From Archaeoglobales archaeon (lineage in GTDB: Archaea > Halobacteriota > Archaeoglobi > Archaeoglobales > Archaeoglobaceae), in assembly GCA_029984855.1 (NCBI GenBank), contig JARQZL010000049.1, forward strand, positions 1 to 57,018: a DNA stretch of 57,018 nt. The letters are read 5' to 3'. A program made the translations under genes and the position numbers. Positions 4,535-30,201 of the stretch are shown here, piece after piece. The notes below the pieces were generated by a model. That model was not told where the DNA came from. It made no database searches and saw nothing but the letters and a program-made list of their open reading frames with translations. Position 1 is the first letter of the stretch. Every line of letters begins with the position of its first letter.

Positions 4535-5212
4535 ATGAATCCCGATATAAAGGACATTACCGAAGATAGAAGAAGTGGGTCATCGAGAATAGTTGAGAAA
4601 GCCCTCAGGTATCTCGAAAACCTCGATAGAGATGAGCAAATCGAGGCAGCGAAGCAGATAGCAATGGCACATCCAGGCATGGCAGGACTTGTCAATATAA
4701 TGAGGCTCATAGAAACACATGATGCGAGAGTAATTCAGAGGAGGATATGTGAGATGAATGAAAAAGCCGGCCAGAAGCTTGCTGAGCTCGTCAAGGGAAA
4801 GAAAGTAGTAACCATAAGCAGAAGTCATATTGTGGAGAGAGGCCTGCACACCGCCAGAAAGGTCTTTGTGCTCCGCTCCGAGCCGGGTGGAGAGGGAATT
4901 GATGCATGCGAATTTTTGAGGGAAATGGTAAAATCAGAACTTGTGTGGGATGCAGAGATGGGATATGTCGTGATGAAGAGCGATGTGGTTGCCTGCGGAG
5001 CGGATGGAATATCAAAGGATGGTTTTGTGAACAAAGTCGGAACTCTGCCTCTTGCTTTAACGGCCAGGTATCTCAACAGACCGTTCTACGTTGTAGCTCC
5101 AAGCTACAAGGCTGGAAGACTAAAGGTTGTTGAACCATTCGAGTTTATACCTGCGGAGCTGGCAACACTGGTAACCGAGGATGGAATAACGGAGTGGTCT
5201 GATGTATCCTAA
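4535..5212 (+). CDS. eIF2B-alpha/beta/delta-like protein, short form
   Basis: This 225-residue protein belongs to the translation-initiation-factor-2B/ribose-1,5-bisphosphate isomerase superfamily. The C-terminal half shows the signature order: VVTISRSHIVERGL, a VFVLRSEPGGEG segment, then SDVVACGADGISKDGFVNKVGT and PFYVVAPSYK. It is much shorter than the ~310-residue eIF2B subunits or R15P isomerase, with only a short helical N-terminal region, so it may be a regulatory or sugar-phosphate-binding paralogue. ATG 4535 is preferred over GTG 4532; gaggtg precedes it. Its TAA (5210-5212) overlaps the stop of the convergent heme gene. Confidence 0.7.
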   Translation: MNPDIKDITEDRRSGSSRIVEKALRYLENLDRDEQIEAAKQIAMAHPGMAGLVNIMRLIETHDARVIQRRICEMNEKAGQKLAELVKGKKVVTISRSHIVERGLHTARKVFVLRSEPGGEGIDACEFLREMVKSELVWDAEMGYVVMKSDVVACGADGISKDGFVNKVGTLPLALTARYLNRPFYVVAPSYKAGRLKVVEPFEFIPAELATLVTEDGITEWSDVS

Positions 5213-6141
5213 GCTTTCAAATCTGCTCTGCTGTAGAGGACTCTTACCTCTTCAGCTCCATACTTTTCGAGTCCTCTCGCAACATCCTCTATTGGATCCC
5301 TGCTGGTGGCATGCATCATGAAGTAGACTGGAAATTCCCACTCCTCTGGAACTTCTCTTTCCACAAGGTGAGTTATCTGTGGGATCTTTACAAGCTTTAG
5401 TGCCAGTTTCTCTGGATTATCTGTCTTCATTACCACCATACCGTTCTCCGAGAAGCCAATCTTCCTCTCTTTGAGGACTCCGCTGAAGTCTCTAACCACT
5501 CCTTTCTTTATCAGCTCCCCAATCAGGTCAACGAGTTCGCCTTCCGTGTATTCCTCAAACTTTGAAAAAGGTCGTTTGCAGACATCCAGACTCTCAAGTC
5601 TTCTGAGCATGGAAACTCTGAGGCCAAGCTCTTCAACCTTTGGAACCTCAAACTTCTCTAACCCCTTCTCGCTCCACGAGACTCCCTTTATAAGGTCATA
5701 CTTCACGTCCATTTTGTAAATTCTTTTCGTCGGAAGAACAACGTAGTCGTTAACCCTGCATTTTCGCATCAACTCTTTTGTCTTTGTAAAAAGTTCTTCT
5801 TTACTCCTTGCCTTGACTGTGAACCACACGGAATAGTGCTCATGTTCTCTCCAGTAGTTGTGTTTGGGGTTTGTTGCGTTTATTATCTGGGCAACTTCTC
5901 TTATTCTGTTCTCTTTAACGGCTGCTCCAACGAGTGCCGCTCTGCACTCTGAGGAGAATGCCCTGTAATTCAGATTTGCACCGTAGCGCTTTATAATTCC
6001 TTTCTCCCTGAATCTCTTCACTCTTTTGATGACAGACTCTTCATCGAACCCCTCCCGCTCTGCAAGCTCTGCAAGTGGCTCTTCGCAGAGCGGAAGTCTG
6101 TACTGAATTGCCATTAAAAGCTTCACGTCATTTTCAAGCAT
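5209..6141 (-). CDS. ahbAB: Siroheme decarboxylase, AhbA-AhbB fusion
   Basis: This 310-residue protein is built from two Lrp/AsnC-like units in tandem, matching the two subunits of siroheme decarboxylase (AhbA, AhbB). That enzyme converts siroheme to 12,18-didecarboxysiroheme in the alternative heme pathway. Unit 1 (about 1-150) has a helix-turn-helix-like segment and HNYWREHEHYSVWFTVKA; unit 2 (about 155-310) repeats the fold with VEREVPEEWEFPVYFMMHA. The start ATG has SD gaggtg five bases upstream, overlapping the stop of the siroheme synthase gene, so the two are coupled in pathway order. DNA-binding regulation is a less likely alternative. Confidence 0.82.
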   Translation of the reverse strand: MLENDVKLLMAIQYRLPLCEEPLAELAEREGFDEESVIKRVKRFREKGIIKRYGANLNYRAFSSECRAALVGAAVKENRIREVAQIINATNPKHNYWREHEHYSVWFTVKARSKEELFTKTKELMRKCRVNDYVVLPTKRIYKMDVKYDLIKGVSWSEKGLEKFEVPKVEELGLRVSMLRRLESLDVCKRPFSKFEEYTEGELVDLIGELIKKGVVRDFSGVLKERKIGFSENGMVVMKTDNPEKLALKLVKIPQITHLVEREVPEEWEFPVYFMMHATSRDPIEDVARGLEKYGAEEVRVLYSRADLKA

Positions 6142-6150
6142 TACGGCACC

Positions 6151-6852
6151 TCAGAACTGCATTTTTACGATGCTTTCGTCAATCTCTTTTTTTCCAGAAA
6201 CGTAATCTTCTACAAGCTCCTCTACGAGCTTTCTTACCCCTTTCATATCTTCTTCTCTTACAAGCCTCCTGAACTCTGGATTTGCTGCAATCACAAAGTA
6301 CAGCTTCATTCTGAGCCTCACTGGCACGTTGTTTGCCTTCATGTACTGCTTGAGATGATACATAGCTTTGAGGAAGTACAGAGTTTCCTCATCCTCTTCA
6401 AGCATCCTCCTGAACGAGTCCCTCACCCTTCTCGCTACAACACCACTCTTCCCCTCTGTTGTTACGGCAAAGCGAATTCCTTCAACCTCGCCCTCAAACG
6501 GTACAACAACTTCTGTTCGATTCGCATCATTTGCAAGATTTACGAGGGTTTTGTGCTTTTTTGCAATTTCCACAACGGTATCGTTAATTTCGAGACTTGG
6601 GATTGCAACTGTTACAAGATCGCTGCTGGCTATTAATTCTTCAAGTCTATCCCTGTCAAACGCATTGCCTTCAATCAGCTCGATTTTTCCCTTTTTTTCC
6701 AGTTCCTTCAGCTCGTCATTAAAGGCAAGGCTGAGGACCCTGACTGTAGCCCCTGCCTCCAGAAATTTCTTGGCCCTTGAGGCTCCAACTCCTCCTCCGC
6801 CTATTATAAGAATGTTTTTTCCCTCGAGTTCGAGGAACAGGGGAATTCTCAT
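6151..6852 (-). CDS. Precorrin-2 dehydrogenase / sirohydrochlorin ferrochelatase (Met8/CysG N-terminal type)
   Basis: This enzyme oxidises precorrin-2 with NAD+ to sirohydrochlorin and may insert iron to give siroheme. The 233-residue protein opens with a Rossmann motif, ILIIGGGGVGASRAKKFLEAG, cut here to its core GGGGVGASRA. It then has the family segment LVTVAIPSLEINDTV and the NRTEVVVPF and FAVTTEGKS region, and a helical C-terminal domain. No SUMT methylase domain is fused, unlike full CysG. It directly precedes ahbAB, feeding siroheme to the decarboxylase. A TATA-like run at 6873-6884 lies about 27 bases upstream, suggesting a leaderless start. Confidence 0.88.
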   Translation of the reverse strand: MRIPLFLELEGKNILIIGGGGVGASRAKKFLEAGATVRVLSLAFNDELKELEKKGKIELIEGNAFDRDRLEELIASSDLVTVAIPSLEINDTVVEIAKKHKTLVNLANDANRTEVVVPFEGEVEGIRFAVTTEGKSGVVARRVRDSFRRMLEEDEETLYFLKAMYHLKQYMKANNVPVRLRMKLYFVIAANPEFRRLVREEDMKGVRKLVEELVEDYVSGKKEIDESIVKMQF

Positions 6853-6886: not shown

Positions 6887-7477
6887 TCATTGAGGTCTGA
6901 ATACAAGCGTGCAGTAGTCGTCGCCCATGGCCATGCAAGTGGTCTGCTCACCGTAAAACCTCTGATTGAGGATACCCTCAAGCAACCCCCATACATAACC
7001 GAATATCGTCCAGCAAACCGGTTGCTTTGCCGGCTCCTTCTTCAACCTCATATAGCCATCGGCCTCGAAGGAGTTCACCATTTTTATCACTATCTCATCG
7101 CCCATCTCCGCACTGATCTTACCCCATCCGAAACCCTCTGCCCATATCGCCAGCATGTTTTTTGCTATTGCAAAGGCCTTATCCGTTGTTAGCTCACCTC
7201 TTTCCCTGTTGTATCTTCTCCTGATTCCTTTTCCTGCTCTCAGTCCACCATTCTTTGCGGCATTTAAAATCAGACCTTTGGCTGCTGGCCCCACAATCTT
7301 TGTGATCTCCTGATAAAGGCCAGCCAGGAAAGTACTGTACATAGCTGCAACCTTTACTCTCTGTATAAATATAACCTCTCCATCTGAATATTCAAGAAAA
7401 ACCTTGACTATTTCATCTCTCGTCCATCCGGTTATATCCTCACCAACAAGAACATCGAAGGGATCCAAACCACTCAC
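6887..7477 (-). CDS. V4R (4-vinyl reductase) domain sensor protein
   Basis: A 196-residue protein whose C-terminal half is a V4R domain, a small-molecule-binding fold first seen in bacteriochlorophyll BchJ and XylR-type regulators. The segment EGFGWGKISAEMGDEIVIKM and the C-terminal CMAMGDDYCTLVFRP, with two cysteines, are the recognisable parts; cysteines in this motif can bind metal or a thiol ligand in the family. It is the last gene of the KaiC/GTPase/Roadblock operon, and its GTG start overlaps the Roadblock stop (GTGA). A TTG at 7468, better spaced from the ggggg SD, is an alternative start. The ligand is unknown. Confidence 0.78.
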   Translation of the reverse strand: MSGLDPFDVLVGEDITGWTRDEIVKVFLEYSDGEVIFIQRVKVAAMYSTFLAGLYQEITKIVGPAAKGLILNAAKNGGLRAGKGIRRRYNRERGELTTDKAFAIAKNMLAIWAEGFGWGKISAEMGDEIVIKMVNSFEADGYMRLKKEPAKQPVCWTIFGYVWGLLEGILNQRFYGEQTTCMAMGDDYCTLVFRPQ

Positions 7478-7845
7478 CCCCTTAAAAGCTCCTTAACACT
7501 TTCACTCGCTCTTCCAAGCTCTAAAAGAACAAGTCCGAGATTTGCTTTGGGATTTGCCATCAGGACAAGTAAAGCCTTGCTTCCCGCACCGGTAGCGACG
7601 ATTTTTCCGTCCTTGCCTTCCACTATAACTCTATCCGGAATGCCTTTCCCAAGCTCAGATGTTGCTGTTTCAGCAGCTCCAAGCATTGTTGCCGTCATCG
7701 CTGCAAAAGCCTCTCCGTTAACGTTTTGAGGAATATCAGCCGCTATGAGTAATCCGTCCCTCGAAACTATTGCTGATGCTTCAACATCTCCAACCGATTT
7801 TAAATCTTTCAGAACCTTTTCGAGCATCTCTCTAAGGCTCGTCAT
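7474..7845 (-). CDS. Roadblock/LC7 (MglB-like) domain protein
   Basis: A single-domain, 123-residue Roadblock/LC7 protein, the fold of MglB, the GTPase-activating partner of the Ras-like MglA. Recognisable elements are ASAIVSRDGLLIAADIP, the helix around GEAFAAMTATMLGAAETA, and the strand KIVATGAGSKALLVLMANP. ATG 7845 is preferred because aggtgg lies five bases before it; GTG 7854 is possible. The 5' end overlaps the stop of the GTPase fusion by 14 bases and the 3' end overlaps the V4R start, so the order implies stoichiometric co-expression with the GTPase. A GAP or scaffold role is inferred from MglB. Confidence 0.86.
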   Translation of the reverse strand: MTSLREMLEKVLKDLKSVGDVEASAIVSRDGLLIAADIPQNVNGEAFAAMTATMLGAAETATSELGKGIPDRVIVEGKDGKIVATGAGSKALLVLMANPKANLGLVLLELGRASESVKELLRG

Positions 7846-8992
7846 ATCTACCACCTATTAAAAGCTTTAAAAGAGCTTCAAGAACGTCATAAACTCCTTC
7901 TCCGTTCTTTGCAACGGTTGGAATTATTAAAATGTCGTCTGGCAATGCCATTCTTTTTCTGATTTCCTCCGGAGAAAGAGCACCCGGCATATCCTGCTTG
8001 TTAGCAGCGATGACATAGGGAAGACCAAAACGTGTGGTTGCTTCAAGCATCTGCTTAGCCCGCGGGAAGGTTTTTGGCTGGGTGGAATCGACAACGAGTA
8101 TCACACCCAATGCTTCCCTCCCCAGAACTTTAAGAAGTGGATCGAACCTCTCCTGCCCGGGAGTGCCGAAAATGTCTATGGAGAACCCCTTATACTCCAC
8201 ATGCCCGTGGTCTAACGCAACTGTAGTACCAAGCCTGTCAACTGAAACGGCTTTGTTTGAGATTGAATGAACAAAACTCGACTTTCCGGCATTGAAAGGT
8301 CCGGTAACAAGTATTTTGGGGATATATGCTCTCACGCCTCCCGGTCTTACGAGTCTGAAGAGCACGGCAACGTTCTCCACGTCAACCCAGTCAGCCTTCA
8401 GAATGCCATAGTAGTAACCAAGCACAACTCTGTGGTGGACTCCTCCAACAGTAACAACGGCATTCGACATGTCCTTGATTCTGTTAAGAACGCTTTCAGA
8501 GTATGGCCACGCAACAAAGCTGAAAACAAGTCTTGAACCGGAGTCTCTTGCCACTCCAGTCCAGCCTTCTGCGATACCGGCAAAGTCTTCGCCACATATA
8601 TCGATCATCGCAGAAAGAGCTCCAACGACTACTAAATCGTTCTCCCGTAAGACCTTTCTTATAACCTCATCAAGCTCTGAAGGATTTGATGGATCCTTCA
8701 CCACATATCTCTCTTCAGATGTAGAACCAACAAAGCCAGAATATGCGTCGATCATAGAGAAGTTCTGGAAGTCATCGAGCTCCCATCCAAACTCCCTGAA
8801 TCTGTTTTTGACACTGGAAGAATTCATTGTAGACGTTACATAGGCACATCTATGCCCCTCTTCGAGGTTGGTGTAAAGAGTTTGCATTGCAAAGACATCT
8901 CCTTCAACCTCAGGATCTATATAGTATGTCAGAGTCTTACCCTTTGGCAGTCTTCCCAGTAACTCCTCGAGTACGGGAATTCCTATCTTCAT
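7832..8992 (-). CDS. Degenerate KaiC-like domain fused to a Ras/MglA-like GTPase
   Basis: This 386-residue fusion has an N-terminal RecA/KaiC-like domain (about 1-215) and a C-terminal small GTPase (about 225-386). In the KaiC part the P-loop position (around residues 22-36) has no GKT/S, so it is probably nucleotide-dead, though a Walker-B-like strand (NDLVVVGALSAMID) remains. The GTPase has G1 GPFNAGKSS (231-239), a G2 threonine in LGTTVA, G3 FGTPGQ (275-280) with Gly where classical Ras proteins have the DxxG Asp, and G4 NKQD (331-334). The atypical G3 resembles MglA and related prokaryotic GTPases. It overlaps both neighbours (ATGA upstream). Confidence 0.85.
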   Translation of the reverse strand: MKIGIPVLEELLGRLPKGKTLTYYIDPEVEGDVFAMQTLYTNLEEGHRCAYVTSTMNSSSVKNRFREFGWELDDFQNFSMIDAYSGFVGSTSEERYVVKDPSNPSELDEVIRKVLRENDLVVVGALSAMIDICGEDFAGIAEGWTGVARDSGSRLVFSFVAWPYSESVLNRIKDMSNAVVTVGGVHHRVVLGYYYGILKADWVDVENVAVLFRLVRPGGVRAYIPKILVTGPFNAGKSSFVHSISNKAVSVDRLGTTVALDHGHVEYKGFSIDIFGTPGQERFDPLLKVLGREALGVILVVDSTQPKTFPRAKQMLEATTRFGLPYVIAANKQDMPGALSPEEIRKRMALPDDILIIPTVAKNGEGVYDVLEALLKLLIGGRYDEP

Positions 8993-9639
8993 GGTATCAC
9001 AACCTTTCCATCTTCAATCACAAACTCTTTCCAGTCCGTTCTACTGGATGAGCTTATAAACCTGAAAAACCTCTTTTCCTCATCTTCTTTGAATTCAATA
9101 ACTCCATTAAACAGCTGTTTTAGAGTCGTTGTTGTCTTGTCGTCATGCATGCCCTCCTCCACAACATAAACTCCTACGCCTCTCGCAGCCCTCAATCTGC
9201 TTGCAAGCACATGCAGAAATCTGAAAACTGTTTGGGGATTTAGATACATCAGAAGTGCAGAAATTGTATCAAAGGCGAGCAAAATATCTCTCACACCAGA
9301 CCTCCAGTATTCCTCAAGAAACCCGTTGACCCTCACAGATATACCGGTTAAATCCATTATGGAGACCCTTTTTATCTTATCTGTGTCTGCAACATCCTCC
9401 ATCATTGCTTTGGAGACACAGTCGATTATTCTGAAGTCGTCGAGGCCAACCTTTTCAAACCACTCCATCAGGGTCTCTGCCGTATCTTTTGTGGAAACAT
9501 AAATCCCCCCGGCTCCGTTACTGACCTCTTCATTGAACAGGGTTCTGACGAAGGCAGACTTCCCAATTAAAGGTGGCCCGTACACCATCAGGTTACTGCC
9601 CTTGGGTATGTCAAGGTCAATGAAGCCAAGTTTCACCAT
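8989..9639 (-). CDS. KaiC-like RecA-superfamily ATPase
   Basis: A single-domain, 216-residue KaiC/RecA-superfamily ATPase. It has Walker A GPPLIGKSA (residues 21-29), a Walker-B-like strand ending DILLAFDTISALL, and the KaiC-type YVSTKDTAE segment. Start ATG 9639 is chosen because a TATA box sits 28 bases upstream and the longer open frame would enter tatC. It is the first gene of the four-gene operon running to 6887. Such proteins act as ATP-dependent switches in archaeal signalling; ArlH in this same window is a relative. A circadian function is not implied. Confidence 0.83.
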   Translation of the reverse strand: MVKLGFIDLDIPKGSNLMVYGPPLIGKSAFVRTLFNEEVSNGAGGIYVSTKDTAETLMEWFEKVGLDDFRIIDCVSKAMMEDVADTDKIKRVSIMDLTGISVRVNGFLEEYWRSGVRDILLAFDTISALLMYLNPQTVFRFLHVLASRLRAARGVGVYVVEEGMHDDKTTTTLKQLFNGVIEFKEDEEKRFFRFISSSSRTDWKEFVIEDGKVVIP

Positions 9640-9661: not shown

Positions 9662-9673
9662 ACATATTTAACC
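9662..9673 (-). promoter_or_regulatory. TATA box of the KaiC/GTPase/Roadblock/V4R operon
   Basis: The minus strand reads ggttaaatat, centred 28 bases before ATG 9639. It lies within the last codons of tatC, so the operon has its own leaderless promoter. Confidence 0.6.
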
Positions 9674-10417
9674 TTTGCCCCTGATACGCTTTCTATGAAT
9701 GACCCTTGTAGCAAGAAGACTGATCTCGAAAAACAGAATCATTGGAGAAGCAACCATAAGCTGGGTAAGAACATCGGGCGGGGTTATTGCAGCACCCAGA
9801 ACGAAAAAACCGACATAGATATGTCTTCTGTAGTAAGTCAGCGTTGAATATTCAACAATTCCATTACCTACCAGAAATGTCATGATGATTGGCATTTGAA
9901 AAACGACGCCGAACACCACGAGCATGAGAACAATGAAGTTTATGAACTCGGATATCGTGTAGTATGCAAGCACACCCTGACTCTGGGCAGTCTGGTAGAG
10001 AAATTTCATGAACAGGGGAAGCATTATCATATACCCGTAAGCAACGCCGAGAGAGAAAAGGAAGATGGATACAAGGCCATAGCGTACTGCAGCACCCTTA
10101 GTAATGCTGATGTTATCAAGTATATCTGTCCTTTCTTTCAAAGTTCTGTATACAAGATATATCAGATATGGCAGGACAGCAGCGATTCCGAGATTCAGAG
10201 ATATCTTCAGTTTAAGAATCCAGCCTTCGAGAGGTGAGGTATATATCAGGCGCGCTCCTTTCGGCAGCATGTCGGCTTTTATTTTCTCTATAAGAGGATC
10301 AGCTATGAAAGTAAAGGAGAGAGCCCATGCAATTGCAATAAGTACAAAGATTCTGACGAGCTTCCTTCTCAGAGTAAGCAGAATCTCTGCTGCATCGCTT
10401 GCAGTAAAATCTGCCAT
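9668..10417 (-). CDS. tatC: Sec-independent protein translocase TatC
   Basis: TatC is the multi-spanning receptor of the twin-arginine translocase, which exports folded proteins. The 249-residue protein has six predicted membrane segments. Recognisable parts are the cytoplasmic N-terminal segment LLTLRRKLVRIF, the first periplasmic stretch RLIYTSPLEGWILKLKIS, the GVVFQMPIIM segment and YYRRHIYVGFFVLGAAITPPD with the conserved proline pair. No tatA lies beside it. The ATG at 10417 is 26 bases after a TATA box, consistent with a leaderless message. Confidence 0.93.
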   Translation of the reverse strand: MADFTASDAAEILLTLRRKLVRIFVLIAIAWALSFTFIADPLIEKIKADMLPKGARLIYTSPLEGWILKLKISLNLGIAAVLPYLIYLVYRTLKERTDILDNISITKGAAVRYGLVSIFLFSLGVAYGYMIMLPLFMKFLYQTAQSQGVLAYYTISEFINFIVLMLVVFGVVFQMPIIMTFLVGNGIVEYSTLTYYRRHIYVGFFVLGAAITPPDVLTQLMVASPMILFFEISLLATRVIHRKRIRGKG

Positions 10418-21796: not shown

Positions 21797-22990
21797 ATGT
21801 TTAAGGGAGCGCTCAAGAAGCTTTCAGGCTCAACAGAGGATAAAAAGAATAAAAAGAGGAAAAAGAGTAGAAAGAAGGAGGAAGAGGAGTTTGACGAAGA
21901 GGTAGTTGAAGAAACTGAAGATATCGAAGATGAAGAGAGTTTTGGCGGGTTTGAAGGTGCAGATATCGAAGATGAGGAAGAAGATGAATTTGAAAAATCC
22001 GGGAAGATAAGTGAACTGGAAACAAGACTGAAAGACCTTGAAAATGACGTTGGTCTGTTCTCATCCAAGCTCAACACCATAAAAGCAGAAAATGAGGAAA
22101 TTGGAAACAGGCTTGCTGAAATCGAAGAAAACGTAAGAAAACTTCTCGGTATTTATGAGATGGTCACGGAGGGGATAAATCCATTTGCTACAGAGGTTAT
22201 GGGAGATGAAGACGGGTTTGGTCTTTTCAGTGCTGTAAACAAGGATAAACCAAAAGAGGACGTTCCAGAGGAACTTGTTTCGAAGGACGCTGAGAGCTTT
22301 TTTGAGGATATAGATGAAGAGGTAGAGGAACCCATTGCCGCTCCGGTGGAAGAAACTTCCAGTACTGGAGATGAAGGTGGCGAGTCTCCTGAAGAGAAAT
22401 TCATGAGGCTTAAAAAAGAGCTTGAGCAACAAAATACACAGGAAGTACAGGAAGAAGCGCCCCAGATCGACTTTGACGCTGAGCTCAATCAAGAAGAACC
22501 TAAGGATATCTACGAAGAACCCGCTCAACCCGCTTATGAAGCTTATGAGGAGCAGTCTCCTGTTCAGGTTGAGAGGAAGAGCGTCTCCGGTCCGTATCTG
22601 AAAAAACTCAGGAGGGATTATATATCGGATATACTTGTGCTGAAGTGGCTTGACTACCTTGTTACGACATTTGGGATAAAGAGGATGGCAGAACTGCTTG
22701 ATTTCTATGTTGATATAGGCTGGATAAGCAGGGAAGTGAAGGAGTTTATGATAAATTGTTCCCGTGGTTACACACTGAGAGATATGCAGTTTGGCAATGA
22801 AGATATGATGGACAGCATGCCAACTCTCAGAGACCATATGAAATCTCTGATATTCATCTCCAAACTGAGCGGGGAGGAAATCAAGATAGAAGATATAGAA
22901 AAGGCTCTCAGGGAAATTGAAGAACTTGAAAGAGAAGTAAATGACTCGATACCTGTGAGCGACCATGGGGCTCTCGACATCGGCTGCTAG
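21797..22990 (+). CDS. arlCE: Archaellum accessory protein ArlC/ArlE fusion
   Basis: A 397-residue soluble archaellum motor protein of the ArlC/D/E (FlaC/D/E) family, part of the cytoplasmic ring that links the motor to CheF. The N-terminal ~75 residues are extremely charged (Lys then Glu/Asp runs). A coiled coil around residues 75-125 corresponds to ArlC. An acidic Pro/Glu linker leads to the C-terminal ArlD/E domain, about 275-350 (GPYLKKLRRDYISDILVLKW and FYVDIGWISREVKEFM). The Euryarchaeota usually have C, D and E as separate or fused genes; here one fused gene stands. It overlaps arlF by 26 bases. Confidence 0.88.
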   Translation: MFKGALKKLSGSTEDKKNKKRKKSRKKEEEEFDEEVVEETEDIEDEESFGGFEGADIEDEEEDEFEKSGKISELETRLKDLENDVGLFSSKLNTIKAENEEIGNRLAEIEENVRKLLGIYEMVTEGINPFATEVMGDEDGFGLFSAVNKDKPKEDVPEELVSKDAESFFEDIDEEVEEPIAAPVEETSSTGDEGGESPEEKFMRLKKELEQQNTQEVQEEAPQIDFDAELNQEEPKDIYEEPAQPAYEAYEEQSPVQVERKSVSGPYLKKLRRDYISDILVLKWLDYLVTTFGIKRMAELLDFYVDIGWISREVKEFMINCSRGYTLRDMQFGNEDMMDSMPTLRDHMKSLIFISKLSGEEIKIEDIEKALREIEELEREVNDSIPVSDHGALDIGC

Positions 22991-23396
22991 TGTCATATTG
23001 CTGGTTGCGATAGTTTTTTCAGCAAGTGTTCTGTTCAACACAATCAATGCAACACAGAACATAGCCCGGCGTGCGCAGATAGAAAAAGGAGATATTGAAT
23101 ATGAGCAACTTCATACCCACATGGAAATTCTCAATGTCACTTACAACTCAACTCTAAGCATCCTGAATATAACTGCCAAAAATGACGGGAGCGAAGAAAT
23201 AGTTGTCGGTGAAATGGATGTTCTGCTGGATGGACAGATATACACCCAGAACGTCACGTCAGTTAAGGTAAATGGTGTTGTAGTTAGTGTCTGGCTCCCC
23301 GAAGAAACTGCAGTAATCAATGTGAGTGTTTCATATCAGCCATCGAGGGTGAAGATAGTGGCTCAAAACGGCGTCTCAGCATACTGGGAGGGATGA
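22965..23396 (+). CDS. arlF: Archaellum stator protein ArlF
   Basis: ArlF binds the S-layer and, with ArlG, anchors the archaellum motor. The 143-residue protein has the usual N-terminal membrane helix (about 4-24, starting MGLSTSAASVILLVAIV), then a beta-rich extracellular domain with several N-x-S/T sites (for example NVTYNST). Its ATG lies inside the arlCE 3' end and its stop is one base before the arlG start. Length and order match ArlF of other euryarchaea. Confidence 0.88.
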   Translation: MGLSTSAASVILLVAIVFSASVLFNTINATQNIARRAQIEKGDIEYEQLHTHMEILNVTYNSTLSILNITAKNDGSEEIVVGEMDVLLDGQIYTQNVTSVKVNGVVVSVWLPEETAVINVSVSYQPSRVKIVAQNGVSAYWEG

Positions 23397-23397
23397 T

Positions 23398-23835
23398 ATG
23401 GCCTCTGCATCTGCCAGTCAGATAGTGTTGTTTATTGCTGCCCTTGTTATATCCTCTGCTGTAGCTGCGGTCATGATGAACACGGTTGGCGAACTCTCTG
23501 GAGTTCTGAGCCAGAAAAACAGGGTTCTCGTTGAGAGCATCAAGGATGATATAACCATAATAAATGACCCGGGGAACATTACTACGAATCCTCTCAAGAT
23601 ATATGTGAAAAATACAGGACTTTCTACGATACCCATTGATAAAAAACTTGTTGATGTGCTTGTTGATGGTGTTTACCAGACGAACTACTCAATTTCATCT
23701 CTCTCCGGAAACACTGAGTGGGAGCCGGGAGACGTTGTTGAACTTGATATAAATGTTACTTTGAGCTCCGGCTCGCATACAGTGAGAATATATGTAAGGG
23801 GCACAGCGTGGGATGAACTCAGATTCAGGGTCTGA
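23398..23835 (+). CDS. arlG: Archaellum stator protein ArlG
   Basis: ArlG forms filaments capped by ArlF to connect the motor to the S-layer. The 145-residue protein has the N-terminal helix ASASQIVLFIAALVISSAV and a beta-sandwich outer domain (KIYVKNTGLSTIPID, then TVRIYVRGTAWDELRFRV). It follows arlF directly. A 124-base gap with its own TATA separates it from arlH. Confidence 0.88.
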   Translation: MASASASQIVLFIAALVISSAVAAVMMNTVGELSGVLSQKNRVLVESIKDDITIINDPGNITTNPLKIYVKNTGLSTIPIDKKLVDVLVDGVYQTNYSISSLSGNTEWEPGDVVELDINVTLSSGSHTVRIYVRGTAWDELRFRV

Positions 23836-23897
23836 TAAGTCGTTAATTCTCTGAAACCAAGAATATTACGCATTTTCAGTCCATCATTATGACAGAA

Positions 23898-23959
23898 ACC
23901 TTTATTAATTTAGATGATAACTATGATAATAGTGATGTTAATTATCAGGAGGTGTTGGA
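23898..23959 (+). promoter_or_regulatory. Internal TATA box and SD for arlH (TTG start)
   Basis: Between arlG and arlH are a TATA-like cctttattaattta (about 23899-23912) and an excellent SD, aggaggtg (23947-23954), five bases before a TTG. The SD decides the TTG start at 23960 and suggests arlH-I-J can be transcribed separately. Confidence 0.6.
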
Positions 23960-24676
23960 TTGTACTCTATCGATCTTGAGAATAGAGACCAGTTAAATGA
24001 GAAACTTGGGGGTGGATTGCCAGAAGGGGCAATCGTCCTTATAGAGGGCAGATACGGTGCCGGGAAAAGTGCTTTAACCCAGCGCATGACTTATGGGATT
24101 TGCGAGGCAGGATATAAAGTTACCCTCGTTTCAACGGAGTTGACAATAAGGCAGTTTCTGACTCAAATGCACTCTCTTACATACAACCGGATAGAGACGC
24201 ATTTGCTAAACGAAAGGATGCTCTTCCTCTATGCAGATCTTGGAAGATTCAGGGGAAAGCGTGAGCTCCTCAAGAGAATGATGGAAGCGAAGGTGATGTG
24301 GAAAGCAGATGTTGTGGCAATAGACACATTTGACGCAATTTTGAGGAACGATGTGACCTTTGATGATCTCGTAAAGCAGGAAAAAGGAAGAAGCGCAGCA
24401 CTTCAGATTATATCTTTCTTTAGGAACATGATAGGAAAGGGCAAGTCTATCATAATTACAATTGACCCAACAAATCTCAGCGAGGACGTCTTGAGCCCAT
24501 TCAGAGCAATCGCTGATGTTTACCTTGAGATAGAGATGATGGAGGTCGGGAATGAAATCAGGAGGAGTATAAACGTCAAAAGGTTTGCGGGGATGGGTGA
24601 GCAGGTAGGAGATAAGATCGGCTTCTCTGTCAGGAGCGGTATCGGTATCGTTATAGAAGCAAGAGCAATAGTGTAA
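23960..24676 (+). CDS. arlH: Archaellum motor ATP-binding protein ArlH
   Basis: ArlH is the KaiC-like protein that binds ATP and docks on ArlI to regulate archaellum assembly and rotation. The 238-residue protein has Walker A GRYGAGKSALT at about residues 30-40, the STELTIRQFL segment and a Walker-B-like strand ADVVAIDTFDAIL. It starts with TTG after a strong SD. It is one of four KaiC-superfamily domains in this window (also 8989-9639, 7832-8992 and 37492-38169). Confidence 0.92.
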   Translation: MYSIDLENRDQLNEKLGGGLPEGAIVLIEGRYGAGKSALTQRMTYGICEAGYKVTLVSTELTIRQFLTQMHSLTYNRIETHLLNERMLFLYADLGRFRGKRELLKRMMEAKVMWKADVVAIDTFDAILRNDVTFDDLVKQEKGRSAALQIISFFRNMIGKGKSIIITIDPTNLSEDVLSPFRAIADVYLEIEMMEVGNEIRRSINVKRFAGMGEQVGDKIGFSVRSGIGIVIEARAIV

Positions 24677-24678
24677 GA

Positions 24679-24692
24679 TTTAATTTATATAA
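24679..24692 (+). promoter_or_regulatory. TATA-like element before arlI
   Basis: ttaatttatataaa lies about 24 bases before ATG 24709 in the 32-base gap after arlH. It may add transcription of arlI-J. Confidence 0.4.
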
Positions 24693-24708
24693 AAGTGAGT
24701 TGGGGTTT

Positions 24709-26361
24709 ATGGCGGCGACAAGACTTCAGCCGGAGCTCAAGAATCTTGCTTACAGATATTCTCACTTAAAGGACCACCTCATCAGCTTCAAGAGAATTAC
24801 CGGGAAATACCCGGTTTATAAAGAAACCCTCACAGATGAAGACAAGAGAAATCGCCGCCCCAACCTCATATACCCCATAGGTGACATGCTATTTGCCCAC
24901 ATCTGGGGTGAAGGAACTCAGGAGACAAGATATTATGTTATAGAACCCCGGCTGAATGAGGAGGAAAAAAGAGGATACAATGTTGTACTTGAACTCGTGC
25001 TTGAACGGTCTGTTATGGAGGAATCTCCTGCATCGGATGAGGAATTTACAGACCTGATTGAAGAGATTTTGAGGGACTCGGTTGTGATAAAAGGAAAGAG
25101 TAGGTCGGGAATAGGATCAATACTGAACCGTTTCGTCAAGTTTAACAGGAAAATCGAAGTTACGAGAGAGACCTACGAAAAATTTCGCTACAGGTTGAAC
25201 AGGGACATCATAGGCATGGGTCCAATCGAACCTCTGATGAGAGATAAGTACTTTGAGGACGTCCATGTGATAAACAGGCAGATAACGTACGGAGTACACA
25301 AGTTTTTTGGAATGGTGAGAACAAACGTGAAGTGGGATAGTGATGAGGAATATGAGCGTTATCTCAAGTCTCTGGGTGAAAGACTTGGCAAACCGATAAG
25401 TGATGCCCATCCGATAATAGATGCAAGACTGCCAGATGGTTCACGTCTTAACCTTATCTACAGTGATGATGTTTCATACCGGGGGTCATCCTTTACAATC
25501 AGGAAATCCAAAGACGTGCCCATCTCTGTCACGCAGCTCATCAAATGGGGAACTCTAACACCGACGCTTGCAGGCTATCTCTGGCTATCGCTTGAGAATG
25601 ATATGAGCCTGATTGTAGCCGGTGAGACTGCAAGTGGTAAGACTACAACGCTTAACGCAATTCTGCCATTTATTCATCACGATGCAAAGATCTACACAGT
25701 CGAGGATACACCAGAGGTTATACCCCCTCACAATGCATGGCAGCAGATGGTTACCAGGGAGAGTGAAGAGGGCAAGGGCGGAGTTACGATGTTCGATTTG
25801 CTGAAAGCAGCACTGCGTTCGAGACCTAACTACATAATAGTTGGTGAGGTCAGAGGTGCAGAGGGTCTGATTGCCTTCCAGGCCATGCAGACAGGTCACC
25901 CAACGATGTTCACATTCCATGCCGCAACTGTTGAGTCTCTCATTCAGAGGCTATCAAGCGACCCGATCAACGTTCCACTTGCTTTCATGGGAAACTGCAA
26001 CATAGCTCTGTTTCAGAACTACATAAAGGGCAAGGGCGTCAGGAGAGTTACAAGCATTCACGAAATTGAAGGATTCTCCAAGCAGTTCAACGGTGTTGTA
26101 ACAAGAGAGGTATTTGAGTACGACTACGTTGAGGACAAAATAATCTTCAAGGGCTTTGCTAATTCGTACATTCTTGAAGAAAAGATAGCTGAAAAAATGG
26201 GACTTCCTGACAGGAGGCAAATTTACAATATACTGGAAGAAAGAGCCAGGATTCTGGAAAGAATGGTTCAGGAGAGGATATTCGACTATTACGAAGTTAA
26301 CGACTTGCTCAAGTCTTACAGGATCAATGGAATTGAGGGATTGCCGTTCAGCATATACTGA
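24709..26361 (+). CDS. arlI: Archaellum motor ATPase ArlI
   Basis: ArlI is the hexameric type II/IV secretion ATPase that drives archaellum assembly and rotation. The 550-residue protein has an N-terminal domain, then the core with RLPDGSRLNLIYSDDVS, Walker A GETASGKTT, an Asp-box/Walker B region LLKAALRSRPNYIIVGEVRG and the His-box segment MQTGHPTMFTFHA. TTG 24700 would add three residues; ATG 24709 is preferred given the TATA position. Family identity is firm. Confidence 0.94.
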   Translation: MAATRLQPELKNLAYRYSHLKDHLISFKRITGKYPVYKETLTDEDKRNRRPNLIYPIGDMLFAHIWGEGTQETRYYVIEPRLNEEEKRGYNVVLELVLERSVMEESPASDEEFTDLIEEILRDSVVIKGKSRSGIGSILNRFVKFNRKIEVTRETYEKFRYRLNRDIIGMGPIEPLMRDKYFEDVHVINRQITYGVHKFFGMVRTNVKWDSDEEYERYLKSLGERLGKPISDAHPIIDARLPDGSRLNLIYSDDVSYRGSSFTIRKSKDVPISVTQLIKWGTLTPTLAGYLWLSLENDMSLIVAGETASGKTTTLNAILPFIHHDAKIYTVEDTPEVIPPHNAWQQMVTRESEEGKGGVTMFDLLKAALRSRPNYIIVGEVRGAEGLIAFQAMQTGHPTMFTFHAATVESLIQRLSSDPINVPLAFMGNCNIALFQNYIKGKGVRRVTSIHEIEGFSKQFNGVVTREVFEYDYVEDKIIFKGFANSYILEEKIAEKMGLPDRRQIYNILEERARILERMVQERIFDYYEVNDLLKSYRINGIEGLPFSIY

Positions 26362-26370
26362 GGTGAGGAT

Positions 26371-28068
26371 ATGGAATATGCAGACATCTTCAGGATGATC
26401 GGGATAGATGCAAGGGAATACTTTACGAGATTTGCATTGCCTCTTGTTGTAATTTCTTTCATCTCAAGTTTACTGTTCTACTATCTTTTCGCTCCGTTTG
26501 TGGGCAGCATGTCTTTTATATTCACACTGCTCCCTCTTTTCGGTATTCTTCTTGCCCTACTTTATCCAAAGGTTGTTGCAGATAAGAAGAGGATAGAAAT
26601 AGACCAGAATCTTCATCTGTTTATCACGCATATCGGGGTTCTCTCAACTGCTGAGGTGGACAGAGTCGGTCTTTTCGAAAAAATAGGTGAAAAAAAAGAG
26701 TTTGAGGAGCTGGCAAATCAGGCCAGAAAAATAGCAAAGCTGGTAAGAGACTGGGGACTCAGTCTGCCAGAAGCATGCAAGTTTCAGGCAAAGCACTGCC
26801 CGAGCAAAATCTTCCGTGATTTCCTTGAGAGGTTTGCCTACAATGTTGATGCAGGTCAGCCTGTAGAGGATTTCCTCATGGCAGAGCAGGATGTAATGAT
26901 GACTGAATTTGAGACAATGTACATAAACTCTCTTAAAGATGTTGAAATATTCAAAGATCTCTTTCTCTCAATGGTTCTGTCAATAGCATTTGCAGTTGTT
27001 TTTGCCACAATTCTGCCAGCCCTGACAGGAACAGACCCGATCCTTATGCTGTCGGTGACAGTAATTCTTTTTGCACTGACTGAAACAGGCTTTCTATATG
27101 CAATGAAAACTCATATCCCTAAGGATCCACTTTGGGCAAGGTTTGAGACGAGCACCGAATCAGAGAGGAAGGTTGGCCTCTGTATTTTAATAGCGATTGT
27201 AGGTGTTGCAGTTCTCTCTGTGATAGTTGCGCTGATGTTTTTGGGCACAATCTCACCGGTGCTTCCCATAGTAAACCAGCCCATACCGATGGTAATTCGG
27301 CTTGTATTGCCCCTGACTCCGCTGCTAATTCCGGGTATCGTCACGAGAAAGATAGAAAAAACCCTGAGGGAGAGAGATAAGCACTATACAAGTTTTATTC
27401 GCTCTCTTGGAGCTGCAGAAACGGCAAAGCAGACCACAACTACTCATGCATTGAGAACTCTTCGCTTTAAGGATTTTGGCGCTCTGACTGAAGAGGTGAG
27501 AAATCTCTACAAAAGGCTGAATATGAGGATAAGTCAGGAGTATTCCTGGAAGATGTTTATGAGAGAGTGTGAGACATTTATTATTCAGAGATTTAGCGAG
27601 ATGTACATGGATGCTCGCATTAAAGGAGGGATTCCGGAGAAGGTTGGAAACCTGATAGCGAAAAATGTTGAGAGGATACATTCCCTCAGGATGTATCGTT
27701 CTCAGACGACCACAACACTTATCGGCGTTCTTTACGGTATAACCGCAAGTCTTGCCTTTGCCCTGTACGTGGGCATTATGGTGATCAAGCTGATGGCAAA
27801 ATCATTGCAGACAATAGATATGACAATGCCTGAAGGCTTGCCCTCTGCAAGCATAGTCAGCCTGCAGCATTACAATATCCCTCAGGTCACGTTTATAATA
27901 GCGCTTCTGCTTATAATCCACTCCATGCTTTCATCAATTATGATAAAGATAGTTGATGGAGGGCATCAGGTGAACGCATACTTCCACTTCGTGATAATGC
28001 TGTGGATTTCCGCTTTATCTGGTCTTGCGGCTGAAGTTGGTATAGGCTCTATGATAAAGATAGGATGA
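26371..28068 (+). CDS. arlJ: Archaellum membrane platform protein ArlJ
   Basis: ArlJ is the polytopic membrane core of the archaellum, homologous to the TadC/PilC platform of type IV pili. The 565-residue protein has N-terminal membrane segments (about 20-70), a cytoplasmic T2SSF-like domain (SLPEACKFQAKHCPSKIFRDFLERF is the first copy; only its core is cited), more membrane segments around residues 190-330, a second T2SSF domain and a C-terminal membrane bundle. It is preceded by gaggtgagg and follows arlI by nine bases. Confidence 0.92.
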   Translation: MEYADIFRMIGIDAREYFTRFALPLVVISFISSLLFYYLFAPFVGSMSFIFTLLPLFGILLALLYPKVVADKKRIEIDQNLHLFITHIGVLSTAEVDRVGLFEKIGEKKEFEELANQARKIAKLVRDWGLSLPEACKFQAKHCPSKIFRDFLERFAYNVDAGQPVEDFLMAEQDVMMTEFETMYINSLKDVEIFKDLFLSMVLSIAFAVVFATILPALTGTDPILMLSVTVILFALTETGFLYAMKTHIPKDPLWARFETSTESERKVGLCILIAIVGVAVLSVIVALMFLGTISPVLPIVNQPIPMVIRLVLPLTPLLIPGIVTRKIEKTLRERDKHYTSFIRSLGAAETAKQTTTTHALRTLRFKDFGALTEEVRNLYKRLNMRISQEYSWKMFMRECETFIIQRFSEMYMDARIKGGIPEKVGNLIAKNVERIHSLRMYRSQTTTTLIGVLYGITASLAFALYVGIMVIKLMAKSLQTIDMTMPEGLPSASIVSLQHYNIPQVTFIIALLLIIHSMLSSIMIKIVDGGHQVNAYFHFVIMLWISALSGLAAEVGIGSMIKIG

Positions 28069-28084
28069 CTTAGCAGGTGAGATC

Positions 28085-29287
28085 ATGATTAAACTTTACG
28101 AGCTTGAGAAAAAAAGGGATGTTGATACACTCATAGAAGTGCTTAGAGGCTCAAGAAGTCAGGCTGTTAGAGCGAGAGCTGCAGAAATTCTGGGGGATAT
28201 AGGTGGTGAGAAAGCATATACAGAGCTCATATCGGTTATAGTCAGTGAAGATGAGGATGAGGAGGTGAGGAATGCTGCCGCAAGATCAATTGCATGGGCA
28301 GATGAAAAGGCTCTTAGAATGCTTCTCGAGAAGCTCGAAGGAAAAAAGGTTAAAGGGGCAACGTGGGTTCTTGCTGACAAGCTTATAAAAGCGCTGGAGA
28401 GCGATGATGCATCGATAAGGGTGAACTCAGCCATTGCACTTGGAAGACTTGGTGATAGCAGGGCATTGCCATACCTCATCAACGCCCTTGAAGACAGCGT
28501 ACCGGAGGTAAGGAGAGCCGCTGCAATGGCCCTTGGCATGCTTGGAGACAGCTCTGCAGTTGACGCCCTGGTTGCGAGACTTGATGATAACAGTGTGGAG
28601 GTCAGAATTGCAGCCCTTGAATCACTCGCAGATCTCGAAATCGGTGATGAGGTTGACAGGATTGCAGAAGCATTGAAGGATGAAAATACAAGAGTCAGAG
28701 AGCTTGCGGCGATAGCCCTTGAAAAGGGGGGTGAAGCTGCCGTGGGACATCTGCTTGAAGCAATTAAGGATCCGGTAAAAGATGTGAGGGTTACGGCAAT
28801 TCAGGCTCTGATAAGTTGTATTTCGAGAGTCCCCCCTGCAAGGAGCGAAGCTGTGAGAAAAAGAATAAGCGAAAACCTCGCAGATGTAGAAGGTATTGCT
28901 GACGTGGTTATTGAAGTCTTTGAAAAAACAGAGAGTGCTGCAATAAAGAAGAACGCTATATGGCTGCTGGGACAGCTTGCCGACCAGAAAGGACTCCCAC
29001 TGCTAATCAAAGCACTTGAATCAGGGGGGCCTGAGGAGAGAAGGCTTGCAGCAACTTCGCTCGTTAAAATACCGGATGCAGTAGAACCATTGCTCGACAT
29101 CATAAGGCACAATGATGAAGAAGTGAGAAGACTTGTTTGCTGGATACTTGGAGAGATCGGAGACAGAAGGGCTAAGGAGTCATTAAATCTTGCTCTTGAA
29201 GACCCAAGCGATAGAGTCAGGAGTGTGGCCTTTCAGGCTCTTAACAAGATAGAACGTGCCGAAAAACTTAAGAGAGCAATTTCCTAA
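28085..29287 (+). CDS. PBS-lyase HEAT-repeat protein, probable taxis adaptor
   Basis: This 400-residue protein is made almost entirely of HEAT-like repeats, about ten helical pairs. Each has signatures such as RARAAEILGDIG, RVNSAIALGRLGDSRAL, RRAAAMALGMLGDSSAV and RRLVCWILGEIGDRRA. Such repeats are protein-binding scaffolds. It sits between arlJ and cheF. In Halobacterium salinarum a PBS-HEAT protein encoded beside CheF takes part in the chemotaxis-archaellum interface, so the same role is likely here. A good SD (aggtgagatc) precedes the ATG. Confidence 0.82.
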   Translation: MIKLYELEKKRDVDTLIEVLRGSRSQAVRARAAEILGDIGGEKAYTELISVIVSEDEDEEVRNAAARSIAWADEKALRMLLEKLEGKKVKGATWVLADKLIKALESDDASIRVNSAIALGRLGDSRALPYLINALEDSVPEVRRAAAMALGMLGDSSAVDALVARLDDNSVEVRIAALESLADLEIGDEVDRIAEALKDENTRVRELAAIALEKGGEAAVGHLLEAIKDPVKDVRVTAIQALISCISRVPPARSEAVRKRISENLADVEGIADVVIEVFEKTESAAIKKNAIWLLGQLADQKGLPLLIKALESGGPEERRLAATSLVKIPDAVEPLLDIIRHNDEEVRRLVCWILGEIGDRRAKESLNLALEDPSDRVRSVAFQALNKIERAEKLKRAIS

Positions 29288-29295
29288 ATAATATT

Positions 29296-30201
29296 GTGGC
29301 AATGAAGGAAGTAAAAGTTGAAGATATAATCGGGAGATTTATATCTCCAGCAGCAGCCGACGGAAAGAGGTTTAGAGATGCCAAATGGCTCCCTGGCAGG
29401 CTAATACTCTCCAACATCAACGTCTGGCTTATTGGAAAGGATAGAAAGAAAAAAATCCCTCTTACAAGCATTATTGACATAGGTGGAAGGCTTGACTTGA
29501 ACATGGAAGTTGCACACACTCCATTTTACCTGCTTATAAAGCATAGCAGCCCAAAAAATGAAAATGTTGTAAGTCTTATAACATCAAGCAAGAGACAGGA
29601 GCTTGAAAAGTTTAAGCTCTCTCTGATAGAGCTCCTCCTCAACAGAAAGATCGTGATTGTCAAGTACCCGGTAACCAAGGGAGGAGTCGTTCAAAAGAAT
29701 GTTAAGTGGGAGAAGGCTCAGATAGCGGTCAAGGATAATAAGATAAGACTTGTAACTGCATCGGGGAGGTTCATCAGAGTAGACCTCGATAAGATTCAAC
29801 TGGTCAGAAGGGAGGATAGAGACGTCAATGGCGAAATGAAGAAGGTGCTGGACATACAGTTCTCGGAGATAGAGGATGACATGGAATTCACTGTGGAGGC
29901 TTATATATTTGCCAGGGATGAGATATTGAACATCCTCCAGCAGTTTATATTTGGTGGATTTGACAAGGTTGCAGCAGACATAGAGCTTTCAGAGATGGAA
30001 AAACACATAATAATGTCCCTTTACACAGGTGTATCTCCGTTCGAGATTCCCAACTTCCTGGGTATTGACGTCGATCAGGTGGAAGAGATATATGATCGAC
30101 TGATTCAGCTTGGGGTTCTGAAAGAAGTGAGAAAGAGAAAAGAGGTTGTTCTCACAACAAGAGGTAAAAATCTGGCCAGCGAGGCTCTCGGTTCTGAGTA
30201 A
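29296..30201 (+). CDS. cheF: Archaeal taxis protein CheF (DUF439)
   Basis: CheF is the archaea-specific adaptor that receives phosphorylated CheY and contacts ArlC/D/E to change archaellum rotation. The 301-residue protein begins with the family block GRFISPAAADGKRFRDAKW and WLPGRLILSNINVWLIG. It ends in a winged-helix-like region (EMEKHIIMSLYTGVSPFEIP and DQVEEIYDRLIQLGVLKEV). GTG 29296 and ATG 29302 are both possible starts. Its stop at 30201 abuts the stop of the convergent che operon at 30202. Confidence 0.88.
   Translation: MAMKEVKVEDIIGRFISPAAADGKRFRDAKWLPGRLILSNINVWLIGKDRKKKIPLTSIIDIGGRLDLNMEVAHTPFYLLIKHSSPKNENVVSLITSSKRQELEKFKLSLIELLLNRKIVIVKYPVTKGGVVQKNVKWEKAQIAVKDNKIRLVTASGRFIRVDLDKIQLVRREDRDVNGEMKKVLDIQFSEIEDDMEFTVEAYIFARDEILNILQQFIFGGFDKVAADIELSEMEKHIIMSLYTGVSPFEIPNFLGIDVDQVEEIYDRLIQLGVLKEVRKRKEVVLTTRGKNLASEALGSE

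Follow-up and report, generated by a model that had tools for sequence, protein, structure and literature searches.

The contig JARQZL010000049.1 of an Archaeoglobales archaeon (GenBank assembly GCA_029984855.1), whose entire length of 57,018 nucleotides is called the window in the following, carries on its minus strand four genes which run from position 9639 to position 6887 and encode a KaiC-like protein, a fusion of a dead KaiC domain with a GTPase, a Roadblock protein and a V4R protein. We suggest that this operon probably encodes a sensor-swappable archaeal G-protein relay and that the V4R protein serves as its sensor in Archaeoglobales. What can be observed directly in support of such a relay is the gene set, its order and its conservation, the identities of the domains, the state of their motifs and the recurrent exchange of the sensor. 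The four genes were delimited by open reading frame calls and Pfam searches; together with the promoter element they are:

8989..9639, minus strand: KaiC-like protein (DUF7504/KaiC) of 216 amino acids, assigned by Pfam, alignment and profile matches to KaiC in the PDB.
7832..8992, minus strand: fusion protein of 386 amino acids with an N-terminal dead KaiC domain (pseudo-ATPase) and a C-terminal MglA/Arf-like GTPase domain, assigned by Pfam, PDB profiles, Foldseek and motifs.
7474..7845, minus strand: Roadblock/LC7 protein of the MglB type, counted from an ATG (with a GTG at 7854 as an alternative start), assigned by Pfam, alignment and PDB profiles.
6887..7477, minus strand: V4R-domain sensor protein with a GTG start, assigned by Pfam, alignment, an AlphaFold2 (AF2) model, Foldseek and residue comparison.
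9664..9677, minus strand: TATA/BRE-like element (BRE, B recognition element) CAAAGGTTAAATAT, assigned by consensus match; the tatC stop codon lies within it.

A preliminary description made from the sequence alone had proposed four overlapping genes behind one TATA box, and we could confirm the open reading frames, the overlaps (4, 14, and 4 bases in succession) and the element. The element CAAAGGTTAAATAT is situated 25–38 bases upstream of the first ATG, and this layout suggests that the operon transcript has little or no leader. Thirteen other Archaeoglobales genomes have comparable elements at a comparable distance from the start codon of the first gene. Since they recur also in genomes in which the upstream gene is not tatC, the operon is probably a transcription unit of its own.

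The fusion protein is the most distinctive component. Pfam assigns residues 2–117 to KaiC (E 5e-11) and residues 226–376 to Arf/Ras (E 5e-15), and the PDB profiles agree with matches to PH0284 at residues 2–131 and to Arf1/MglA at residues 228–380. The AF2 model also matches PH0284 in Foldseek but is poor over residues 184–293 with low confidence in the GTPase half, so that the assignment of the GTPase fold rests on the sequence. In the KaiC domain the P-loop lysine is absent, the P-loop position reading DPEVEG or PGVEG, and no GK[ST] occurs at this position among the variants listed from an alignment of 77 fusion proteins. A regular expression for Walker A gave 31 matches in the fusions, which we rejected as all of them correspond to a GGIPxGK stretch upstream of the P-loop. 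The GTPase motifs, on the other hand, are complete (G1 GPFNAGKS, G2 TT, G3 FGTPGQERF, G4 NKQD). The G3 sequence FGTPGQ is invariant in the fusion alignment and is the common form across the 77 relatives; likewise T256 and T257 of G2 are invariant in the fusion alignment, and TT is found in the G2 variants listed for the relatives. Thus, Pfam and the state of the motifs bear out the earlier view of a Ras/MglA-like GTPase fused to an inactive KaiC domain.

The two genes on either side of the fusion encode proteins of known families. The Roadblock protein (Robl_LC7, E 8e-18) has PDB profile matches to an archaeal Roadblock protein, to CvnB5 and to MglB, and its Asp–Gly pair D30–G31 is invariant in the alignment. 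The KaiC-like protein matches DUF7504 (E 6e-26) and KaiC (E 2e-9). In the window it has kept the P-loop GPPLIGKS and the Walker B sequence FDT, and the first catalytic glutamate is replaced by lysine. A comparison of active sites that covered 59 relatives shows the Walker A lysine and the Walker B aspartate to be kept here, with lysine or arginine in place of the first glutamate and aspartate or glutamate at the second position; the active site is degenerate in the ANME relatives (anaerobic methanotrophic archaea; see below).

The full-length fusion is present in 15 of 57 Archaeoglobales genomes. The order KaiC-like protein, fusion, Roadblock, V4R is kept in 13 genomes besides that of the window; in the fifteenth genome (G021) a protoglobin gene stands between the Roadblock gene and a more divergent V4R gene. 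In every fusion-bearing Archaeoglobales genome the Roadblock gene of the operon is the only one. The genome of the window (2.1 Mb) contains this single Roadblock gene and two V4R genes; given these low numbers and the recurrence of the order in 13 genomes, the grouping goes beyond chance. Co-occurrence of the four genes in other genomes had been named in the preliminary description as a point on which its proposal should stand or fall, and the search did not refute it. The simplest alternative would be that the genes are neighbours for reasons of expression and do not form a single pathway. In favour of mere co-transcription, the genes of the module lie in ANME relatives amid housekeeping genes such as YhbY, RPS19e and TruD, which were read from the sequences without a family search. 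Against it speaks the phylogenetic profile within the order, as a close V4R relative occurs in 14 of the 15 fusion-bearing genomes but is missing from all 42 others (counts uncorrected for shared ancestry). Moreover, the association recurs in different gene orders, the sensor has been exchanged repeatedly, and in one case three domains are fused (see below). We therefore regard co-transcription without common function as very improbable.

A scan of named genomes yielded 80 fusion loci, of which 65 have enough flanking sequence for neighbour counts. The fusion is pan-archaeal, which the preliminary description had not noticed, and the 80 loci come from ANME-2, Methanoperedens, Alkanophaga, Hydrothermarchaeota, Methanobacteria, Altiarchaeota, Nanoarchaeota, Bathyarchaeota, Undinarchaeota, and others. 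The fusion gene adjoins a Roadblock gene at 60 of the 65 loci, a KaiC gene at 52 and both at 48, and two gene orders prevail: KaiC–fusion–Roadblock and Roadblock–fusion–KaiC. At L165 (5752-7392, minus strand) dead KaiC, GTPase and Roadblock form one chain of 546 amino acids, in which the glutamine of G3 is replaced by histidine; this three-domain protein implies a direct contact of GTPase and Roadblock.

The genes next to this constant core vary. V4R genes lie within 4 kb of the fusion at 22 of the 80 loci, and in addition at L156 and L157, in several gene orders, and the linkage of V4R changed at least seven times on a tree of 97 fusion proteins. V4R accompanies the core in Archaeoglobaceae, Bathyarchaeia (L156 and L157), a nanoarchaeon, Methanomassiliicoccales and ANME-2. 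Other genes in this position encode protoglobin (L054, L111, L156), PAS domains or arrays with no kinase domain (L159–L162, L093, L112, L115), a dCache-HAMP protein (L112) or a FIST protein (L091). All five are known as input domains from other signalling systems. That the inputs change while the core stays constant is our main reason for reading the operon as a signalling module. Cysteine-rich proteins with no Pfam match adjoin the core at L121 (5362-6356, plus strand; ANME-2) and L102 (10619-11110, plus strand; Methanobacteriaceae) and are possibly further sensor domains. At L108 (9247-10211, plus strand) an apparent Roadblock–V4R fusion breaks its frame inside V4R; as this might be an assembly artefact we did not use it as evidence. 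A metagenome-assembled genome labelled Proteobacteria (L106) has a Roadblock gene and a fusion on a very long branch, and both misbinning and gene transfer are possible.

The V4R protein of the window exceeds the Pfam gathering score of 31 with 48.9 bits (E 7e-13) and was modelled with a pLDDT (predicted local distance difference test) of 89.5. In Foldseek, MopR and PoxR rank first with a TM (template modelling) score of 0.7. Cys155, Cys181, and Cys189 are invariant and correspond to the metal site of PoxR and MopR; their spacing of 26 and 34 residues is also that of the zinc site of DmpR, which is formed by Cys151, Cys177, and Cys185 (PMC7264223). The fourth ligand position is glutamate in the linked V4R proteins and glutamine in the window protein. 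The two phenol contacts of MopR, His106 and Trp134, correspond to leucine and methionine in the window protein and are replaced in nearly all linked V4R proteins. Because these contacts are not conserved, we rejected phenol as the ligand, and the V4R protein probably binds something other than a phenol.

The fold of V4R is shared with TRAPPC3, and among the structures matched by the model are also Bet3/TRAPPC3 and Thor-TRAPPC3. The V4R protein could thus be a relative of Bet3/TRAPPC3 which, together with Roadblock, forms a platform for guanine nucleotide exchange (guanine nucleotide exchange factor, GEF) in membrane-associated GTPase work. In fact Asgard archaea possess GTPase, Roadblock, and TRAPPC3-like proteins (PMC10933270). 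At L119 (6885-7436, plus strand), a locus of Methanomassiliicoccales, the Roadblock and V4R genes flank an additional gene for a Ras/Rab-like GTPase, so that one cluster holds two GTPases. However, MopR/PoxR are clearly the better structural match, TRAPPC3 reaching a TM score of only about 0.45–0.5, and ligand binding is favoured for archaeal V4R proteins (PMC10933270). Protoglobin and PAS, which replace V4R at other loci, are sensors and not scaffolds for nucleotide exchange. Since the fold search favours the phenol-sensor domains we set the TRAPP-like reading aside as improbable.

Several observations weigh against the proposed relay. The list of sensors was drawn from selected representatives and is not a full census, and at most loci no recognised sensor adjoins the core. 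Nine Methanomicrobiales loci pair KaiC with a divergent fusion and have no adjacent Roadblock gene. A conserved output gene was sought among representative relatives and none was found. Finally, the active site of the KaiC-like partner is degenerate in its ANME relatives and partly lost in the window protein, and ATP turnover may therefore not be needed. The ATP switch of the preliminary description is accordingly left uncertain, the retained lysine and Walker B aspartate speaking for it and the lost glutamate and the decay in ANME against it. ArlH offers a precedent for a KaiC-like protein which binds ATP but does not hydrolyze it (PMC8978795).

Two Methanomicrobiales loci (L171 and L172) have FeoB and a DtxR/FeoA-type iron regulator directly upstream of KaiC and the divergent fusion, and a tetrapyrrole-methylase-fold gene and DUF357 after it. 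In the window, two genes of tetrapyrrole metabolism follow the operon:

6151..6852, minus strand: protein of the CysG N-terminal (precorrin-2 dehydrogenase) type, assigned by NCBIfam; it begins 34 bases 3′ of the V4R gene.
5209..6141, minus strand: AhbA–AhbB (siroheme decarboxylase) fusion of 310 amino acids, assigned by NCBIfam with AhbB above the cut-off and AhbA slightly below.

Judged from their position, both genes may be co-transcribed with the operon. They raise the alternative of a tetrapyrrole, iron or redox circuit linked to the synthesis of siroheme and heme, in which V4R senses a tetrapyrrole or the redox state and the relay tunes cysG–ahbAB or some heme-dependent process. The V4R domain is in fact named for the vinyl reductase of (bacterio)chlorophyll synthesis, the protein has a weak match to the redox regulator MsvR, and protoglobin takes the sensor position in G021 and in Bathyarchaeia; for iron, divergent fusions adjoin FeoB/DtxR genes in several Methanomicrobiales. 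The two genes lie directly 3′ of V4R in the genera g1 and g12, but they are not beside the operon in g11, the wider fusion family adjoins many unrelated genes, and V4R families bind diverse ligands. Of the alternatives considered here this one is the least improbable, although we consider it unlikely.

The preliminary description had further linked the operon tentatively to the polarity of archaella or pili on account of nearby motility genes:

21797-30201, plus strand: archaellum cluster with arlCDE-type, KaiC/ArlH-type, T2SSE, T2SSF, and CheF genes.

Also in this cluster, a gene for a HEAT-repeat protein of 400 amino acids separates the T2SSF from the CheF genes. According to such a reading the operon would encode an MglAB-like regulator of polarity or motility for archaella or type IV pili. 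MglA and MglB set polarity in bacteria, the arl cluster is 12 kb away from the operon in the window, and the archaellum marker is found in 13 of the 15 genomes with the fusion compared with 12 of the 42 without it. In addition, archaeal loci for type IV pili often carry Roadblock (arCOG02603) and KaiC families (PMC4858521). The proximity is not conserved, however: the distance is ∼147 kb in the complete genome of a congener (G019), and no match to Arch_fla_DE was obtained in G021 (95% complete), which carries the operon. The 12 genomes with archaellum genes and no fusion also speak against a common function, the association tracks a few genera and is confounded by ancestry, and among the annotated neighbours of the relatives' loci there are no archaellum or pilus genes. 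The motility reading is therefore weak; we rejected it as the main explanation and judge it somewhat less plausible still than the tetrapyrrole circuit.

Returning to the G-protein relay, the idea of a path from a signal to a GTPase, already voiced in the preliminary description, gains support from the conserved set, from the marks of MglA/MglB Groups 2–5 (see below), from the likeness of V4R to the phenol sensors and from the other sensors found in the same position. From these we infer the physical contacts, the role of Roadblock as GTPase-activating protein (GAP) or exchange factor, the ligand, the direction and the output of the relay as follows. The V4R protein would probably be dimeric, its pocket for a small molecule or for redox sensing being stabilised by a metal, and would change its state upon a change in ligand or redox conditions. 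The altered V4R would act on the Roadblock homodimer, which as a GAP and/or exchange factor would determine whether the MglA-type GTPase carries GTP or GDP. The dead KaiC half would anchor the GTPase to a RecA-type ring or a hetero-oligomer with the partner KaiC, and the latter would pass the state on to an effector encoded elsewhere than in the vicinity of the operon. We propose the flow from V4R over Roadblock to the GTPase, with the two KaiC folds as output platform, by analogy to the conservon, whose Roadblock protein acts as a GAP through which the input of the sensor is thought to reach the GTPase (PMC13343842).

Two-component systems are scarce in Archaea, and a role as signalling hubs has been put forward for their KaiC proteins. 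Whether exchangeable sensors and a common core (Roadblock, KaiC and a GTPase borne by a pseudo-KaiC) make up a general archaeal signalling architecture, undescribed as a system, we consider an evenly balanced question; with the same reserve it would range from Nanoarchaeota and Altiarchaeota to Bathyarchaeia, ANME methane oxidisers, methanogens and Archaeoglobi. If true, this architecture would have its parallels in two-component systems and in the conservon of bacteria. The module names a core, its likely switch (the GTPase), its likely regulator (Roadblock) and its inputs, and it occurs in organisms relevant to methane cycling. All of the domains, the coupling of MglA and MglB, the conservon and the KaiC hubs are already known. 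Our literature searches, which reached few subscription papers and did not extend to a survey of KaiC proteins from 2017 that may list the fusion, gave no description of the four-gene set, and the module appears to be unstudied by experiment.

Among the known systems, MglA–MglB shares the families of the GTPase and of the Roadblock protein, as the profile matches to both proteins indicate. MglA itself belongs to Group 1, has the sequence TVPGQ and controls polarity, whereas the archaeal operon has GTPGQ in G3, the fusion to dead KaiC, an attached sensor gene and no link to polarity that we could find. Groups 2–5 of the MglA classification are marked by GTPGQ in G3, threonine in place of arginine in G2 and a coupled MglB-type Roadblock with the Asp–Gly pair (PMC4316618). 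The fusion has GTPGQ and the threonine, and a Roadblock with D30–G31 is adjacent at the 60 loci mentioned above; at 386 amino acids, however, it is longer than the limit of ≤240, as Wuichet's classification excluded proteins above 240 amino acids (PMC4316618). The archaeal Group 4 MglA proteins are likewise coupled to MglB and have GTPGQ, with no conserved neighbours reported (PMC4316618). Thus, the fusion shares archaeal origin, MglB coupling and GTPGQ with Group 4, yet lies outside the ≤240-amino-acid set.

Active and inactivated KaiC proteins are described as archaeal signalling hubs in the part of Makarova 2017 that is quoted in PMC5847659, and the operon resembles such hubs in joining a KaiC-like protein and an inactivated KaiC domain in a probable signalling role. 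ArlH differs as it acts in the archaellum motor. We know of no Roadblock protein or GTPase that works with ArlH. The operon V4R resembles PoxR, MopR, and DmpR in its fold and in the Cys-Glu-Cys-Cys metal site (with glutamine for glutamate in the window), but it stands alone without an AAA+ or DNA-binding domain, and the phenol-contacting histidine and tryptophan are replaced. Asgard archaea have the same three fold families, namely GTPase, Roadblock, and TRAPPC3. In the Asgard archaeon MK-D1 the GTPase genes generally lie outside operons with Roadblock, longin, and TRAPPC3 genes (PMC10933270), whereas here the GTPase, Roadblock, and V4R/TRAPPC3-fold genes are united in one operon.

Of the systems known to work, the actinobacterial conservon (CvnA–D; AGPS) comes closest; it is an operon of a sensor, an MglB-type Roadblock protein and a small MglA-family GTPase of Group 2 with GTPGQ. 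The conservon is bacterial, has a histidine-kinase-like sensor (CvnA), includes CvnC and uses a stand-alone GTPase; in the archaeal operon neither a kinase nor a DUF742 (CvnC) gene was found among the open reading frames and Pfam matches. Instead, the sensor is V4R, protoglobin, PAS or dCache, and a KaiC and a dead KaiC are added. The module would be an archaeal counterpart of the conservon.

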